33,649 bases of DNA from positions 1 to 33,649 of the forward strand of contig SLED01000158.1 of assembly GCA_007124945.1 (NCBI GenBank), written 5' to 3'. Shown here in pieces: positions 6,950 to 26,896 of this stretch. How positions within the stretch are numbered: position 1 is the first letter of the stretch; the number at the start of each line of letters is the position of its first letter. The notes under the pieces were generated by a model. That model saw nothing but the letters and a program-made list of their open reading frames with translations, searched no databases and was not told the origin of the DNA. The DNA comes from Salinibacteraceae bacterium. Its GTDB lineage: Bacteria > Bacteroidota > Rhodothermia > Rhodothermales > Salinibacteraceae. A program made the position numbers and the translations under genes.

Positions 6950-8800
6950 ATGCGCATCTGTGTAGCAGTCCTCCTTTTCTTCCTTCTGTGCCCCGACGCC
7001 TCCGGACAGGTGTCGTGGAGCGATGACTTTTCCGACGGTGACCTTACGCAGGATCCCGAATGGATGGGTACGGTCGACCGCTGGACCATCGATGTGCTTG
7101 AGGACATCCCTGCACTTCGCACCAACGGGGTGGCAGAAGCGGACACGGTTTTTCTCGCAACGGAGTCACCGATTAGCTTTGGCGAATGGCAGTTTCGCTT
7201 CGCCCATGTGGATGTTAACCTGAGCATCTTTAATGGAGCACGCATCTTCCTCATCGCTGATACGCCCACGCTCGATGGGCCGGTGTTGGGGTACTATCTT
7301 CAATTTGGAACCAACAACAGTAACGAGGTGCGCCTATACCGTATTGATGGCGATCCCGCTACGCAGCGGGTGGAGCTCGGTCGGAGCGATCCCATACTCG
7401 ACGGGTTCGACAATACGCTTGATGTTGTCGTAAGTCGCTCCCAGGATAACCAATGGCAGGTGTTTGCCAATGGCGCTTTGCTGTTTGAGGCAGAAGACGA
7501 TACGTATGCGTTCGGCCAGTACTTTGGCGTCTGGGCGAAGCACACGGCCTCGGCCCCCACGAATCTATACTTCGCTGACTTCGCGGTGAGTGGCGCTACC
7601 GGCCCTGTAGATGATCAGCCATTCGAGATCACCGGCGTGGACCAGATCGAGCCAGCGGCGCTGGAAGTTGCTACTACCGTTCCGGTTGATATCGCATCCC
7701 TGAGCCCCGCCGATATTTCACTCGATTCGGGCGCCCAGGCCTCCTCTATCGCCGCCAGCACCGAGTTAAATCAGTTCCAGGTGAGTTTCCCGGGACCCGT
7801 GGATGCGTCTTCCTTGATGGTGGCGTCACTTCGAGATTTCGCCGGGCGTGAACTGGTGGACACGGTGACTCCTATCGCCCGCTGGCCGGCGCCGGGCGAT
7901 CTGAAGATCAACGAAATCATGTACAACCCGCGGGTCGATCGCTTCGACCCGACACCGGATCAGCCATCTTACGTGGAGCTCGTTAACACCAGCGACGAGA
8001 CGCTCACACTCCGGCATCTTCGGTGGGCTGGGCGTATCGATGCAGCTGGCGAAGCAGACACCCTGCACGTGGGCCGCCCCTTTACCTCGGTTCGGCCCGA
8101 TGGCTTCGTGGTGGTTGCTGCCGAGCCAGACGGGGACGAGGTGCTCTACGAAACCCGTCTGTACCAGGCTTTTCCGTCCTTTCCCTGGGCTGCCCCCGAT
8201 GTGACACTGCTGCCCCTCCACCGCGCCACCCTCGGACTCCGAAATGCGGGCGACCGTATTGCGCTCTATGGTGCGGGTCCGGAACGCCTCGACGAAGTGG
8301 AGTACGGCCCTGAATGGCATCACCCTGGCGTCTCGGTAACGGCGGGGCGTGCGCTGGAGCGGCTCAGCATCCATCGCCCGTCCAACGAGCCGCAGAACTG
8401 GACCACATCCGTAGATGAGGCGGGCGGCACACCCGGCCTGCCCAACAGCGTTCGCACCCGCCCTCCCACCGAGCTCCCCGATGAAGCGCTTGCGGTCCAC
8501 CCCTCACCATTTTTCCCTGAAGGAAGCGGTGAAGATCGGCTTGCTGTCATACAGTACCGGCTACAGCAGCCTGTGAGCAGCATTCGCGTCCGCATTTTCG
8601 ACCGAAACGGGCGCCTGGTCCGTACACTCAAAGAAGCGACGCTCTCTGCCGAAACAGGAGAACTCATCTGGGACGGCCTGGATGACAAAGGCCGCCGGCT
8701 CCGCATCGGGCCCTACATCGTACATCTGGAAGCAATGGACGAAATAACCGGAACGGTGGAAATGCATCGGGCCCCCGTGGTACTTGCGCGCCCCCTGTAG
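6950..8800 (+). CDS. secreted lamin-tail-domain protein with C-terminal FlgD-like Ig fold
   Basis: 616 residues. A Sec signal peptide covers about 1-20 (RICVAVLLFFLLCPDASG, likely cleaved before QVSWSD). A concanavalin-like jelly-roll segment spans about 24-215 (FSDGDL, then NNSNEVRLYRIDGD and FGVWAKHTAS). A bacterial Ig-like linker covers about 222-310, and a lamin-tail domain about 315-500 (LKINEIMYNP, YVELVNTSDETLTL). The end (about 540-605) is a FlgD-like Ig module: VRIFDRNGRLVRTL, WDGLDDKGRRLRIGPYIVHL. Such modules often close secreted Bacteroidota proteins and lie where a type IX sorting signal would be expected, but no canonical sorting motif was identified. Probably an extracellular or surface protein; ligand unknown. 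Confidence 0.85.
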   Translation: MRICVAVLLFFLLCPDASGQVSWSDDFSDGDLTQDPEWMGTVDRWTIDVLEDIPALRTNGVAEADTVFLATESPISFGEWQFRFAHVDVNLSIFNGARIFLIADTPTLDGPVLGYYLQFGTNNSNEVRLYRIDGDPATQRVELGRSDPILDGFDNTLDVVVSRSQDNQWQVFANGALLFEAEDDTYAFGQYFGVWAKHTASAPTNLYFADFAVSGATGPVDDQPFEITGVDQIEPAALEVATTVPVDIASLSPADISLDSGAQASSIAASTELNQFQVSFPGPVDASSLMVASLRDFAGRELVDTVTPIARWPAPGDLKINEIMYNPRVDRFDPTPDQPSYVELVNTSDETLTLRHLRWAGRIDAAGEADTLHVGRPFTSVRPDGFVVVAAEPDGDEVLYETRLYQAFPSFPWAAPDVTLLPLHRATLGLRNAGDRIALYGAGPERLDEVEYGPEWHHPGVSVTAGRALERLSIHRPSNEPQNWTTSVDEAGGTPGLPNSVRTRPPTELPDEALAVHPSPFFPEGSGEDRLAVIQYRLQQPVSSIRVRIFDRNGRLVRTLKEATLSAETGELIWDGLDDKGRRLRIGPYIVHLEAMDEITGTVEMHRAPVVLARPL

Positions 8801-20495: not shown

Positions 20496-20550
20496 ATCGA
20501 CACGCATGAGGTCGTACGCCCCTATCTCGAAACGGTGCGCCCGAATGGCG

Positions 20551-21090
20551 CTATTGCAGGGCTGCAACAGCATCAACCGTTTCTCTTACCTCGGCTTCAT
20601 CGTTGATTATACTCGGTGCGATTCGGGCATAAGAGACGTGATAGGGAGTTGTGCTGGCGATAACACCTCTCTCACGTAGATGCGCTACAACCTGCTGCGG
20701 GTCGATGCCATCGACCTCGAAGCAGATCATACCCGATGAGAGTTGTGGGCTCATGGGTGTACGCAACGTCACGTTGGATAGCTCTGCAAGCAATTCTTTC
20801 GCCATCGTATTGAGCCCGTGTACCCGTTTCACTACCCGATCCTTGCCGATCTATCGATGAAACTCGAACGCTTCTGCCACGGCCCATCGGTGTTCATAGG
20901 CGTGAAAGCCTCCCGGGGTAAAACGATCGCCCGCTGAAATATCGTCCGGGGATGAAAGGCCCAGCCAGGCAGAATAAGCGCTCCAGCTAAAGCTGGGAAT
21001 TACCGGTGCTACAACCTCCCATGCCTCCGGCCGCCCCCAGATGATTCCGGTGCCGTGCGGCCGCAGCGTGTATGGTGTCTCAGCTGGCAT
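20551..21090 (-). pseudogene. C-terminal remnant of a class V (PLP) aminotransferase with an in-frame TAG
   Basis: The reading frame from 21090 to 20551 is one continuous fold interrupted by a single TAG at 20851-20853. Upstream of it: LRPHGTGIIWGRPEAWE, FTPGGFHAYEHRWAVAEAF. Downstream: IGKDRVVKRVHGLN, GMICFEVDGIDPQQVVAHL and YHVSYARIAPSIINDEAEV. This is the C-terminal small domain of a class V aminotransferase (isopenicillin-N-epimerase/cysteine-desulfurase-like). The N-terminal large domain with the PLP lysine is missing: just before LRPHGTG, where the Lys-containing motif is expected, the sequence turns into the neighbouring dehydrogenase-like gene. TAG for TGG (Trp) is the likeliest change. 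It cannot be active as a transaminase. Confidence 0.8.
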
Positions 21091-21978
21091 TCACCCTTGC
21101 AGCAGCCTGCCCGACGGCCCGCTGTGCCAGCGGCTGATCCCGAAGTCTGCTCGCGGTAAAGTTGGGCGTCTTCGTTTCCACCAGTTCGTGAATTGCGTCA
21201 ATCGCAGCCGCCGCTACACCGATGGACACCGTGGTCTCGCCCAGAACAGCTGACAGTGAAAACATCCGGTAGAGCGGCCCCTCGAAACCAGGGCCTGATG
21301 CTCCAATGGACCGATTGGCAAGACTCGACGATCGGGAACGAACTGGTCGGTAACAGCCACGTCCGCCGACCCCGTACCTCTCATACCCATAGTGTGCCAC
21401 GTATCAAAGATCTTGATGTCTTCCTGTGGTACGAAGAAACCGTATGCGGTAGGCTGACCGGAGTCGGGGTCCAGTACCGGCTCACCACCCTCCGCCTCCA
21501 GTGCCGGAATCCAGATCCAGTGTGCGTTGTGGCACCCGCTCACAAACGGCTGGCGGGCCGTCACCTTCCAACCACCATCCACCCGCTCTCCGGTACCTGG
21601 CGGAAAGAATCCCCCGGCCGCCGTCGTCGGACCGTCAGTCAGCAGTTCCTGCGCCCGCTCCTCCGGGAGCCATGCCGCAAAGCACGCGATCCCCTGGTTC
21701 ATCACCAGATTCCATCCGGCGGCAGAGTCGACCCGTGTCACTGCCTCCCAGACGCGCATGACGTCAGTGATCGGAAGTTCGTGACCACCATAGGCCTTTG
21801 GAGCCAGCAACCCGAAGAGCCCTGCGTCAAACATGGCATCAAACGTGCCCTGTGGAAGCTTGCGTTCTGACTCAGCCTAGTCAGCATGCTCCTCCAGCAC
21901 CGGGCGGATGTGCTCGAATGCTTCGCGGAGTTCTGTGGCAACACCATTCGTCGACCCTTCCGCTATCAGCATCTTCAT
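21080..21978 (-). pseudogene. decayed acyl-CoA-dehydrogenase-like flavoprotein (group D monooxygenase type)
   Basis: The minus strand reads from ATG at 21978 (MKMLIAEGSTNGVATEL) through FEHIRPVLEEHAD, meets TAG at 21877-21879 (probably CAG, Gln, originally) and continues in frame as AESERKLPQGTFDAMFDAGLFGLLAPKAYGG. Further blocks: GWKVTARQPFVSGCHNAHW, WHTMGMRGTGSADV and VPDRRVLPI, typical of the acyl-CoA dehydrogenase superfamily members related to HpaB/HsaA-like hydroxylases. A frameshift near 21270-21310 moves the frame to GPGFEGPLYRMFSLSAVLG. The protein then stops at 21080 after QAAARVNAS, about 90 residues short of a normal C-terminus, exactly where the aminotransferase remnant begins. 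Three separate lesions make it a pseudogene. Confidence 0.83.
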
Positions 21979-22396
21979 GGCTTACTCCCTTATCGATGAA
22001 CGATGGTTTGCCGGGATTGTGTTGGAGAATCCAATTGCTACCTTCATCCGGCCCACAGAAGCACTTCGTGCGCATAATCCTCTTCGTCCCACGCCGCGAA
22101 CGTACAACTTCCATTGATGCCGTACACGTATCGATTGCAACCCTCAGCGTGACATACACCCCGCGTCCACGTGGGCGCTGTGAGCTGAAACACGCGCCCC
22201 GAAGATGCGGGTATCCACACAACTTCAAACAATGCAAGCGTTCCCTAACACTTCTGTTAGCCAGAAAGCAGCGCTAACCCGATCATCTCCGGCTCGGGAT
22301 TCATCCCTCCCTCATGATCCGGAGGGCGTGCAGCCTGCCCCTTTCGAGCCCTACGAATGGAATCTCCGTCGCAAAAAGTTCGGCACGAACCAGCTC
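21979..22396. other. intergenic stretch between pseudogenes and the DprA-like gene
   Basis: No gene is supported. Short frames on the minus strand (for example 22044-22232, which has clustered Cys residues) match nothing I recognise. GTTAGC (22256-22261) and GCTAAC (22273-22278) form a weak hairpin downstream of the DprA-like stop, without a T-run. Confidence 0.3.
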
Positions 22397-23794
22397 TTAT
22401 CCCTGGGAAAACAGATCTCGTCCCTGAGAGGTGGTATTATTCTCTGCCGGAGCGCCACGTTGCGCTCGTCCAGACTCGGTCGACTCTTCCTGCCGGGCAT
22501 GCTGCTCGGACACCCGGTAAAGGACCGGCCGCTCGCTTCGCTCGGCCAGTCCCTTTTCTACCGCCTTCATTAACCAGCTTCGGATTTGTCCGAGCTGTGC
22601 ATCTGCAAAATGCTCCTGAATATCTCGTTCCCCTTGCGGCTCTTGCAGAACTGACTTAAGCGCCGGCCAGACGAGCGGAAGGAGCTCGGGCTTCTCGCCT
22701 TCGGCCCGACATCGGACCAGATACTCCTTGTATTCCTCGAAGACAGCCGCCGATGCATCCGCACTCTCAGTATCACTGTCTTTCTGGTGGCCGTTAATCA
22801 GTGCATCTGCAAGGGTAGGTTCCTCGTTAAGGGCGGAAGGCGTCTCCAGCCACGATGCGAGATCAAAATCGTCGCGTAGCAGTCGGCGGTCGATCGGGAT
22901 ACCTCCCTGCTCGATCAACGCGCGGTTGCCTTCGGGAAGCGGCGGCTCCGCAAGCACGAAAAGAGGTACCCACCGGTGCCGCAGGTTTTCGGTGGCGCCT
23001 GCCCACGTCCCGCCGCTGCCTTTAGCCGAGTGGGCGACGAGCGTACCGTCGCTGAGCGAATACACATGCTTGTTGCGATCCATCGCTTTCCAGACGGCGA
23101 ACCGAGAATCAGGGTGATAAGCTGACACCAGTACCAGCCGCCCTTCCATCAGGGCGGATCGATATTTCTTGGCCGTGGCCGCTCTGCCCAGTCCGTTGGC
23201 CAGTGCGCCGACCACCGTACCCCCTCCCTCCAGCGCCGCCTCCATCGCCTCGCCATCGACCCCACGAGCGCCGCCAGAAATTACCTGAACACCCTGCCGC
23301 GCGCAGCGAGAAGCCATATCGCGTACGTATGCGAGCGCACTGCCGTCGGCATCACGCGATCCAACGATGCTGAGGCCTCCTCGGTTGAGTAACTCCTGCG
23401 GGCCTACACCCCACAGGATCGGTGGTGCCTTGTGCTGAAGCCGACGGCGCAACCGCACGGGATAATTCGCATCAGAGCGTGCCAGCAACCAGCCTCCCTG
23501 ATTGGTCCAGGTCTCGACCGCCATTGCCATGGCTGTACTCCGCCTTAGCAGCGCATGCAATCGTTCACGATTGACCTTCTGTGCCCCGTCGAAAGCTTTC
23601 AGCTTCTCCCGCCCCTCTTCCCGGAGCAGCGAGGCGGGCCGAAGGTCCTGGTGTCGCAGCCATTCCGCCACCGCATTGTACTCCGCGAGTGACAGGGGCT
23701 TGGCCGACTTATCACTCTCGTGCTTGCCGAAGCGGCCGCAGAGCAAAATGATGGCTTGCGCATCCGGCTCCAGAATATGAGATGATGTCTGCAT
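22397..23794 (-). CDS. DprA/Smf-like protein of a RecQ-phosphoribosyltransferase operon (ShosA-like)
   Basis: 465 residues, cytoplasmic. The central Rossmann domain (about 125-285) carries the DprA signature: ILWGVGPQELL, LSIVGSRDAD (GSR at 145-147), QVISGGARGVDGEAMEAAL (173-180 replaces the SGLARGID of canonical DprA), and a late block KAMDRNKHVYSLSDG where DprA has a comparable RNR motif. An N-terminal helical domain (about 10-100, with PLSLAEYNAVAEWL) resembles the SAM-like part of Smf proteins. A ~100-residue charged linker and a winged-helix-like end (about 385-430, SWLMKAVEKGLAERS) follow. It starts 2 bases after the helicase stop. DprA proteins bind ssDNA in transformation; here the pairing with a PRTase points instead to a ShosTA-like defence or toxin-antitoxin role, where the DprA homologue is the antitoxin (inference). 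Confidence 0.83.
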   Translation of the reverse strand: MQTSSHILEPDAQAIILLCGRFGKHESDKSAKPLSLAEYNAVAEWLRHQDLRPASLLREEGREKLKAFDGAQKVNRERLHALLRRSTAMAMAVETWTNQGGWLLARSDANYPVRLRRRLQHKAPPILWGVGPQELLNRGGLSIVGSRDADGSALAYVRDMASRCARQGVQVISGGARGVDGEAMEAALEGGGTVVGALANGLGRAATAKKYRSALMEGRLVLVSAYHPDSRFAVWKAMDRNKHVYSLSDGTLVAHSAKGSGGTWAGATENLRHRWVPLFVLAEPPLPEGNRALIEQGGIPIDRRLLRDDFDLASWLETPSALNEEPTLADALINGHQKDSDTESADASAAVFEEYKEYLVRCRAEGEKPELLPLVWPALKSVLQEPQGERDIQEHFADAQLGQIRSWLMKAVEKGLAERSERPVLYRVSEQHARQEESTESGRAQRGAPAENNTTSQGRDLFSQG

Positions 23795-23796
23795 AA

Positions 23797-25902
23797 CTAC
23801 GTGGACGTCGGGGTTGTCGTTGCCAGAACCATGGGAAATACGGGGCCACTACCTGCTTCACGCAGAAGGGCGGTGATTACCGTGAGCGTCCACCGTGAGT
23901 AGACGGTGTCATCGACGAGTAAGACAGGACCTGCATTTACAGGATGACTTTCGACCTGAAAAACACCGTCCAAATTACGCGTCTGCTGATGCGAGTTCTC
24001 CATCTGCTTCTGCGGCTTGTTGTCACGGACTTTTCGAACGCAGTCCACAAACGGCAGGTTCAGTGCTTCAGCAAGCCGTCGAGCGTAGTCCGGCACGAGA
24101 TGGGGACGCTTGTGAGAGGGAACGAACGTCACCCACGTCGGAAAGGGATCGGGTTGCCAGCGCTCCTGGATCATGGCTCGAGCAGCTCCCACGAGGCGGT
24201 CATCAAAGGCGCCTACCACTTGCTTTCCATGCTTCACGATCTGGCCCCAGCCGGCATCGCCCCAGATCGATAGTGCGCGGCCTTGCTCCGCCTTATGCGT
24301 ATCGCTCATGGTACTCTTCCAGCCATGCGACGAAAGCGCATCCGTATGCGGCCATTGCTTACGAGGATGAATTACAACCTCGCTGCGCTGCAAGAACAAC
24401 GCCGCCTCCCTGGCGATCGTCTCGTCAAAGGCAACGGGAATCAACGGACGGCCATTACATGATGCACACTGCCCGCATGGCTTCGCATGAGGATCGTCCA
24501 GTGCCTCCTGTAAAAACTGCATGAGGCAACCATCGTGCTCCATGTAGCGCTGCATCTCGGCCTGCTCCTGGCGCCGGATTCTGGTGATCAGCTGTACCTT
24601 CTCTCGGTCCGGCTGGTATGGAACCGCCGTGCGATACCAGCGACTGCCCCGCTTGACGACAGGCGAGGGCGATCGCACAGAGAGCAGCTTAAGCACATGC
24701 TGGATTTGCTTGCGGCGGAGATTAACCTGTCGCTCTATCTCCGTCACCTTCAGGCCGTTACCGTCCAGCAGCGCTCCCAGCACCTGCTCAACATGCCCTT
24801 CGGCAGGAAAGGACTTGCGAATGAAATAATCGATGATGTCATCATCTTCCGAGCCGTGCAGAAGAATCCCGTGTGCAGAGTTTCCATCACGCCCTGCACG
24901 TCCAACCTGCTGATAGTAATGTACCACAGAGCCGGGCCGCTGGTAATGAATTACGAAACTAAGATCCGGTTTGTCGAAGCCCATTCCAAGGGCAACGGTA
25001 GCGACCAGCGCCTTCACTTCATTGTTCAGGAGTGCCTGCTCCCGGGCTATACGTTCCTCCGTATCCAGCTGTCCGGAGTAGGCATGCGCGTCGATCCCCT
25101 GCAACTGGAGCCACTCCGCCACGCGCTCGGCGTCGCGAACGGTGAGGGTGTAGATGATGCCGCTTCCGGGCAGGTCCGGCAGATGCTGGGCGAGCCATGC
25201 AAGCCGGGCCGTGGGGCTGGGCATGGCGACGTTTTGCAGGCGGAGACTTGCGCGCGCCAGTGGTCCTCTCGATATATCAACGTTGTGCCCAATCTGCGTA
25301 GCTACGTCTTCTACCACGCGGTCATTCGCCGTGGCGGTGGTGGTAAGGATGGGCATATTGCCCGGCATGGCCTGGAGCACGCGGACAATGCGCAGATAAT
25401 CGGGGCGAAAGTCATGGCCCCAGTCGGAGATGCAGTGCGCCTCGTCGACCACGAAAAGGCCGACGCGATCGGCAAGGGCAGCCAGCACGTCTTGCCGAAA
25501 AGATTCGTTGGCAAGCCGCTCCGGAGATATCAAAAGAATGTCGACTTTATCCTCTCGGATGCCGCGCTCGATACGGCGCCACGCGTCGGTGTTAGTAGAG
25601 TTGATGGTCTCTGCACGGATACCAATGCGCCCGGCCGCTTCGATCTGATTCCGCATAAGCGCAAGTAGAGGAGAAATCAGGATGGTCGGCCCCTCCCCCT
25701 GATCGCGCAGCAGCCGCGTGGCCAGGAAGTACACCATGCTCTTCCCCCACCCGGTTCGGCGCACCAGAAGAAGCCGTTTTCTATCGAAGACCAGACTGCG
25801 GATGGCCTCCCACTGACCGTCCCTGAACTGCGCCGTCGGAATACCAAGCGCCTGCCGGAGATATCCAAGTGCCCGAGCGTGAGGGCCTGTAGCCAGTTCC
25901 AT
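23797..25902 (-). CDS. RecQ-family helicase fused to a ComF/ShosT-like phosphoribosyltransferase
   Basis: 701 residues. Helicase core: Q-motif-like FRDGQ (27-31), Walker A RTGWGKS (49-55, in place of the usual PTGGGKS), DEAHCISDWGHDFRPDY (153-169, with the RecQ aromatic loop), TTTATAND (187-194) and QQVGRAGRDG (331-340). A RecQ-C-terminal-like winged region (about 370-450) and a four-cysteine zinc site (C459, C476, C479, C482; CGQCASC) follow. No HRDC domain is present. The last ~120 residues are a type I phosphoribosyltransferase fold: VTFVPSHKRPHLVPDYARRLAEAL (591-613) and the PRPP-loop-like VLLVDDTVYSRWTLTV (660-675), whose TGxT phosphate loop is changed to YSRWT. The fusion, and the DprA-like gene 2 bases downstream, argue against a housekeeping RecQ and for a defence function. 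Confidence 0.88.
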   Translation of the reverse strand: MELATGPHARALGYLRQALGIPTAQFRDGQWEAIRSLVFDRKRLLLVRRTGWGKSMVYFLATRLLRDQGEGPTILISPLLALMRNQIEAAGRIGIRAETINSTNTDAWRRIERGIREDKVDILLISPERLANESFRQDVLAALADRVGLFVVDEAHCISDWGHDFRPDYLRIVRVLQAMPGNMPILTTTATANDRVVEDVATQIGHNVDISRGPLARASLRLQNVAMPSPTARLAWLAQHLPDLPGSGIIYTLTVRDAERVAEWLQLQGIDAHAYSGQLDTEERIAREQALLNNEVKALVATVALGMGFDKPDLSFVIHYQRPGSVVHYYQQVGRAGRDGNSAHGILLHGSEDDDIIDYFIRKSFPAEGHVEQVLGALLDGNGLKVTEIERQVNLRRKQIQHVLKLLSVRSPSPVVKRGSRWYRTAVPYQPDREKVQLITRIRRQEQAEMQRYMEHDGCLMQFLQEALDDPHAKPCGQCASCNGRPLIPVAFDETIAREAALFLQRSEVVIHPRKQWPHTDALSSHGWKSTMSDTHKAEQGRALSIWGDAGWGQIVKHGKQVVGAFDDRLVGAARAMIQERWQPDPFPTWVTFVPSHKRPHLVPDYARRLAEALNLPFVDCVRKVRDNKPQKQMENSHQQTRNLDGVFQVESHPVNAGPVLLVDDTVYSRWTLTVITALLREAGSGPVFPMVLATTTPTST

Positions 25903-26638: not shown

Positions 26639-26642
26639 GCAG

Positions 26643-26726
26643 TGCCCTGGAGAGGAGTCGAACCTCCACGAGCATTAGCTCACAGCATCCTGAATGCTGC
26701 GCGTCTACCAGTTCCGCCACCAGGGC
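26643..26726 (-). tRNA. tRNA-Leu (anticodon CAG)
   Basis: 84 nt class II tRNA on the minus strand. Acceptor stem GCCCTGG pairs with CCAGGGC; A73 is at 26643. D-arm GCGGAACTGGTAGACGC is leucine-typical. The anticodon loop TTCAGGA gives anticodon CAG, closed by GCAGCA/TGCTGT. The long variable arm (TGAGCTAATGCTCG) and GGTTCGACTCC T-arm complete it. CCA is not encoded. Confidence 0.96.
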
Positions 26727-26743
26727 TCGTGTGTAAGGATCGC

Positions 26744-26773
26744 AATATACGATACCACCCTCCCCGAGTTCAA
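26744..26773 (-). promoter_or_regulatory. promoter of tRNA-Leu(CAG)
   Basis: On the minus strand TTGAAC (26768-26773) and TATATT (26744-26749) are separated by 18 bases. The -10 element ends 17 bases before the tRNA, as at the tRNA-Leu(TAA) gene. Confidence 0.6.
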
Positions 26774-26896
26774 GGGGGTGTGCATCTCCACCGTCGTTTC
26801 ATGAATAGCGGTTCCTTTAGCGTCTGAGCGGCATCGAGACCTGCGTGAGCGGGGGATGATGCGTTGGAGAAGTTGGCAGCATCGTTTTCACTCATA

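Follow-up and report, generated by a model that had tools for sequence, protein, structure and literature searches.

The window, meaning the whole 33,649-nucleotide stretch analysed here (contig SLED01000158.1 of a Salinibacteraceae genome of 3.3 Mb that is 86% complete), carries two intact, same-strand open reading frames, psyrT (rqlH) and psyrA (rqlI), in which all motifs are kept (Table 1). The two genes meet in a TAG-TT-ATG junction with a 2 bp gap, which confirms the DprA/Smf-like gene that had been placed two bases after the helicase gene from the sequence alone (Pfam 2.7e-35). A promoter scan at the locus returned no excess above shuffles, and a terminator scan returned a weak one.

Table 1. 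Features of the psyrTA locus and of tandem psyrA-like genes in a related genus (coordinates of the window, or of the named locus where one is given)
Feature	Coordinates	Strand	Description and evidence
psyrT (rqlH)	23797..25902	-	RecQ-family helicase-PRTase fusion, 701 aa, predicted toxin; PADLOC, NCBIfam, AlphaFold2
RecQ helicase core, residues 10-365	24808..25875	-	Pfam DEAD and Helicase_C, NCBIfam RecQ family, Foldseek
Four-Cys (zinc-type) site C459, C476, C479, C482	24457..24528	-	Sequence and alignment consensus
PRTase domain, residues 538-697	23812..24291	-	Pribosyltran in homologues, PDB profile matches, alpha/beta order of the model
PRPP-binding loop LVDDTVYSRWT, residues 662-672	23887..23919	-	Alignment of 43 homologues
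psyrA (rqlI)	22397..23794	-	DprA-like predicted antitoxin, 465 aa; PADLOC, AlphaFold2
DprA Rossmann-like (SLOG) domain, residues 98-272	22979..23503	-	Pfam DNA_processg_A 2.7e-35, Foldseek
C-terminal winged-helix-like segment, residues about 372-430	22505..22681	-	Secondary structure of the model
tRNA-Leu(CAG)	26642-26726		
Tandem psyrA-like genes, L115	6004-6882 and 6987-8177	-	
Tandem psyrA-like genes, L116	11214-12584 and 12505-13476	+	
Tandem psyrA-like genes, L100	8045-9196 and 9210-10139	+	

The N-terminal part of PsyrT is a RecQ-type helicase core followed by a four-Cys site, as had been read from the letters and is now borne out by Pfam, NCBIfam and the alignment. The AlphaFold2 model of the whole of PsyrT (pLDDT 89.3) matches RecQ, BLM and RECQL5 structures in Foldseek, with only RecQ-type helicases among the best 50 listed. 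The Walker A motif reads R-TGWGK-S (residues 49-55, TGWGK at 50-54) and the DEAH box occupies residues 153-156; K54 and D153-H156 are invariant across the 43 aligned homologues. The RTGWGKS sequence had been called atypical, and while the sequence itself stands, TGWGK is invariant in all 43 homologues and is therefore a signature of the family.

The C-terminal domain of PsyrT is PRTase-like, judging from profiles and the structural model. The window domain itself gives a weak match to Pfam Pribosyltran (E 0.002, under the gathering score), the same family being matched by 36 of the 43 homologous domains (best 6e-9), and a profile built from these 43 domains aligns across the PRPP loop with PDB entries for PRPP synthetases (1.6e-5) and PurF-type amidophosphoribosyltransferases. 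Within that loop there is no variation at D664, S669 or W671, and D665 and T672 occur in 42 of the 43 homologues. The NCBIfam GntX (ComFC-type) model matches residues 607-687, and the AlphaFold2 model shows, at pLDDT mostly above 90, alternating strands and helices ending in LLVDD and then a helix. As Foldseek on the whole protein has only RecQ-type helicases among the best 50 listed, the assignment of the PRTase fold draws on profiles and on the order of secondary-structure elements rather than on a structural hit. The homologue Pfam matches, the PDB profile matches and the conserved loop thus support the PRTase-like domain with VLLVDD proposed by the sequence-only reading; the extent of the domain, at about 538-697, somewhat exceeds the residues 585-701 assigned to it.

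The PsyrA model (pLDDT 88.7) matches DprA (3maj, 3uqz) and ShosA (8zva) structures in Foldseek, and Pfam helix-turn-helix domains are matched at the C-terminus in some homologues only.

Both proteins match PADLOC models nearly end to end, PsyrT at 979.8 bits (residues 9-697 of 701 against positions 6-685 of 689) and PsyrA at 425 bits (residues 8-428 of 465 against positions 3-396 of 398), and the pair is on this ground assigned to PsyrTA/RqlHI. Its architecture agrees: a helicase and a C-terminal PRTase are joined in a single protein, a DprA-family partner follows directly downstream, and the helicase Walker A lysine, the DEAH box and the acidic residues of the PRPP loop are intact. PsyrTA, a system of both PADLOC and DefenseFinder, was described as a toxin-antitoxin system of Pseudomonas syringae (Sberro et al. 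2013, as reported in PMC4670107 and PMC8790059) and has the same RecQ-PRTase toxin followed by a DprA-family antitoxin; nothing of substance differs in the window pair beyond sequence divergence and host. The same pair is reported from extraintestinal E. coli as RqlH/RqlI (PMC4670107), an orthologous pair with the order, spacing and motif positions seen here. A pair from an E. coli plasmid, standing in for RqlH/RqlI and arranged in the same order, shares 55% identity with the window pair in the toxin and 36% in the antitoxin. This stand-in lies on the conjugative plasmid NZ_OX030731.1 (locus L117, 2992-6509), flanked by hsdS and hsdR inside a type I restriction-modification operon. The locus is thus almost certainly an intact PsyrTA (RqlHI) toxin-antitoxin operon, a candidate anti-phage system predicted to be active in this host.

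ShosTA, which combines a PRTase with a DprA-like protein and protects against T7 and lambda, has already been grouped with syrTA and rqlHI as DprA-antitoxin systems by Rousset et al. (PMC9122126). The relatedness to ShosTA put forward earlier therefore holds as to kind, a PRTase toxin with a DprA-like antitoxin, and is echoed in the match of PsyrA to the ShosA structure; the idea of a new, helicase-bearing extension of ShosTA gives way to the described PsyrTA/RqlHI. Membership of ShosTA itself was rejected, for ShosT has no RecQ helicase whereas the PRTase of the window is fused to a RecQ core, and the best ShosA model reaches 70.5 bits on PsyrA (PADLOC) against 425 for the PsyrA model. No ShosT model appears among the best 25 PADLOC matches listed for PsyrT. 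The look of novelty given by the raw sequence is thereby corrected: the helicase-PRTase and DprA operon is an established system across many phyla, of which the window pair is an ordinary new copy rather than a novel ShosTA-derived combination. What this copy adds is a host lineage, together with a relative (73%/59%) within the same family.

Leaving the window out, 81 homologous loci extend far enough beyond PsyrT for the linkage to be judged, and in 66 of them PsyrA lies directly downstream. This count comprises 60 linked and 15 unlinked loci among 80 PsyrT homologues of public genomes (the other five lie on contigs that end too early) and six of six linked loci in relatives. Nine of the 15 unlinked loci offer 4.8-6 kb of sequence downstream, and most of these nine are from Actinomycetota, in agreement with published observations that Gram-positive bacteria often carry RqlH alone; a toxin-antitoxin pairing is therefore not a necessary feature of the family. 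Among 59 relatives the distribution is patchy, with full-length PsyrT in six (46-73% identity) and a contig-end fragment in one further relative, a congener (80% identity over 88 residues). In that congener (G002, contig C77, locus L132) the start of the PsyrT gene occupies 2-262 at the contig end, beside a gene for an Xre/MbcA/ParS-type antitoxin (489-1178). Synonymous sites are saturated between the window pair and the copy in G005 (dN/dS comparison), and no full-length PsyrT was found in the phage records searched.

The operon had been thought to lie between a decayed locus and a tRNA gene, as accessory loci often do. Decayed remains are present in the window at 20500-22000 on the minus strand, where a kynureninase-like class-V aminotransferase can be traced along with an acyl-CoA dehydrogenase split between two frames, and so is a tRNA-Leu, but neither a defence-island setting nor a tRNA-borne element emerges. 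The window contains no defence genes; the neighbours encode a ClpC-type ATPase, prephenate dehydrogenase, GcvT, FtsK, PurK, PurE and DinB-like, Nramp and 5-oxoprolinase-type proteins, and this housekeeping company rules out a defence island in the window, in line with the under-representation of PsyrTA in defence islands in a metagenome survey (PMC10924106). FtsK, PurK and PurE lie to the left of the operon, in an order kept in the congeners G001 and G002, and no PsyrTA follows them in the congener sequence fetched (0.7 kb of contig remaining in G001, 12 kb in G002). The tRNA-Leu with about 80 bp of its 5' flank (26642-26806) is 83% identical in two congeners, and in G002, which has sequence beyond, homology ends at the tRNA 3' end, which fits a break point there. 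Rfam elements in the window are confined to tRNAs. An island borne by the tRNA was considered and found unsupported, the homology break being accompanied by no att-like repeat and no integrase.

Much of what can be said about mechanism comes from the E. coli orthologue. RqlH genotoxicity is reported to need the PRTase domain and the PRPP-loop acid D663, the PRTase alone being insufficient, and to increase in the helicase-dead variants K49A and D148A; RqlI is reported to bind RqlH and to relieve toxicity without its HTH (PMC4670107). The helicase of the orthologue therefore restrains the PRTase, so that the helicase, proposed earlier as an added DNA sensor, is not merely a sensor. The companion proposal of a PRTase effector restrained by the DprA-like protein fits the PRTase-dependent genotoxicity and the binding and restraint by RqlI. 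K54, D153 and D664/D665 of the window protein correspond to RqlH K49, D148 and D663. For ShosT, in turn, a review describes phosphoribosyltransferase as well as pyrophosphatase activity, with disturbed purine metabolism as the outcome and phage T7 Gp0.7 as the trigger (PMC12593503, citing Pu et al. 2025). Taken together, the RqlH mutants, the matching residues and the ShosT activity lead us to expect a DNA-engaging, PRPP-using toxin in PsyrT.

In the proposed mechanism, PsyrA, a DprA-family protein of ssDNA-binding type made from the same operon, would bind PsyrT and hold it in check, restraint being shared with PsyrT's own helicase, and the helicase/DprA part would most likely engage DNA ends, forks or ssDNA. 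Infection or damage, the presumed trigger, may then disturb this restraint, and the freed PRTase could act with PRPP on a nucleotide, base or DNA substrate; damage to the nucleotide pool or to DNA would induce SOS and filamentation and stop the cell before the phage multiplies. Toxicity, neutralisation and interaction are thus predicted for the window copy from the E. coli orthologue, and phage defence is likewise suggested by analogy. A bolder version, which we advance tentatively and consider rather improbable, is that PsyrTA acts as a genome-integrity sensor: while bound to normal DNA, RecQ and DprA would keep the PRTase inactive, and phage-made ends or ssDNA would set it free to corrupt purine nucleotides, as is reported for ShosT. 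If true, this would give the family as a whole a new mechanism, the window locus being one more example; the PRTase substrate and the trigger are questions for the entire PsyrTA/ShosTA group.

Other readings of the pair differ widely in plausibility. That it is simply the genome's ordinary RecQ and DprA can practically be dismissed: both proteins belong to those superfamilies, which, like that of ComFA/ComFC, are common ground with housekeeping genes, but a better DprA match lies on contig C390 (248 bits, against 124 for the window protein), two other RecQ-family helicases are encoded on C327 and C368, and equivalog scores are low (292 against a cut-off of 640 for TIGR01389, RecQ; 94.5 against 191 for TIGR00732, DprA). 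With separate DprA and RecQ genes present, the pair is therefore neither the housekeeping set nor, as the sequence-only reading had left open, the sole RecQ and DprA of the genome. A selfish addiction module or mobile-element relic at tRNA-Leu with no current role is quite improbable; the end of congener homology at the tRNA, the plasmid copies and a truncated integrase beside the G005 copy speak for it, yet no repeat of the tRNA region of at least 11 bases occurs elsewhere in the window, no integrase gene does either, and the intact reading frames and motifs point the other way.

Weightier, if still on the doubtful side, is the view that the pair serves DNA repair or recombination as an accessory module, in which the helicase would remodel forks, the DprA-like protein would load RecA and the PRTase would modify DNA or nucleotides, toxicity arising only from imbalance. 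Russell and Mulvey prefer to see the two proteins cooperating on DNA, solo RqlH/PsyrT is found in many Actinomycetota, and a native-host study recorded no protection by PsyrTA against its phages on overexpression, together with a growth defect (PMC12409345). Against this stand the patchy distribution among relatives, the inclusion of the family in defence databases, the copy inside a type I restriction operon, and the protection that the ShosTA-like DprA-PRTase pair gives against T7 and lambda. The reading of the locus as a PsyrTA toxin-antitoxin operon and candidate anti-phage system is the one preferred here.

Several related loci deserve mention. In the closest relative, G005 (locus L111), the truncated tyrosine integrase (8203-8778, minus strand, 192 aa) lies directly upstream of PsyrTA. 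The plasmids NZ_CP008875.1 and NZ_CP011565.1 of the archaeon Halanaeroarchaeum sulfurireducens carry a full-length PsyrT homologue (46%). In the related genus g23, PsyrT is followed by two tandem, divergent PsyrA-like genes (L115, L116 and L100; Table 1), and at least two adjacent PsyrA-like genes occur in all six g23 species sampled. First copies are 40-49% identical to one another and second copies, which are shorter (293-323 aa), 47-57%; identity between first and second copies, at 29-37%, is below these values, and the PsyrA duplication is therefore old. This arrangement is possibly a three-gene variant of PsyrTA.
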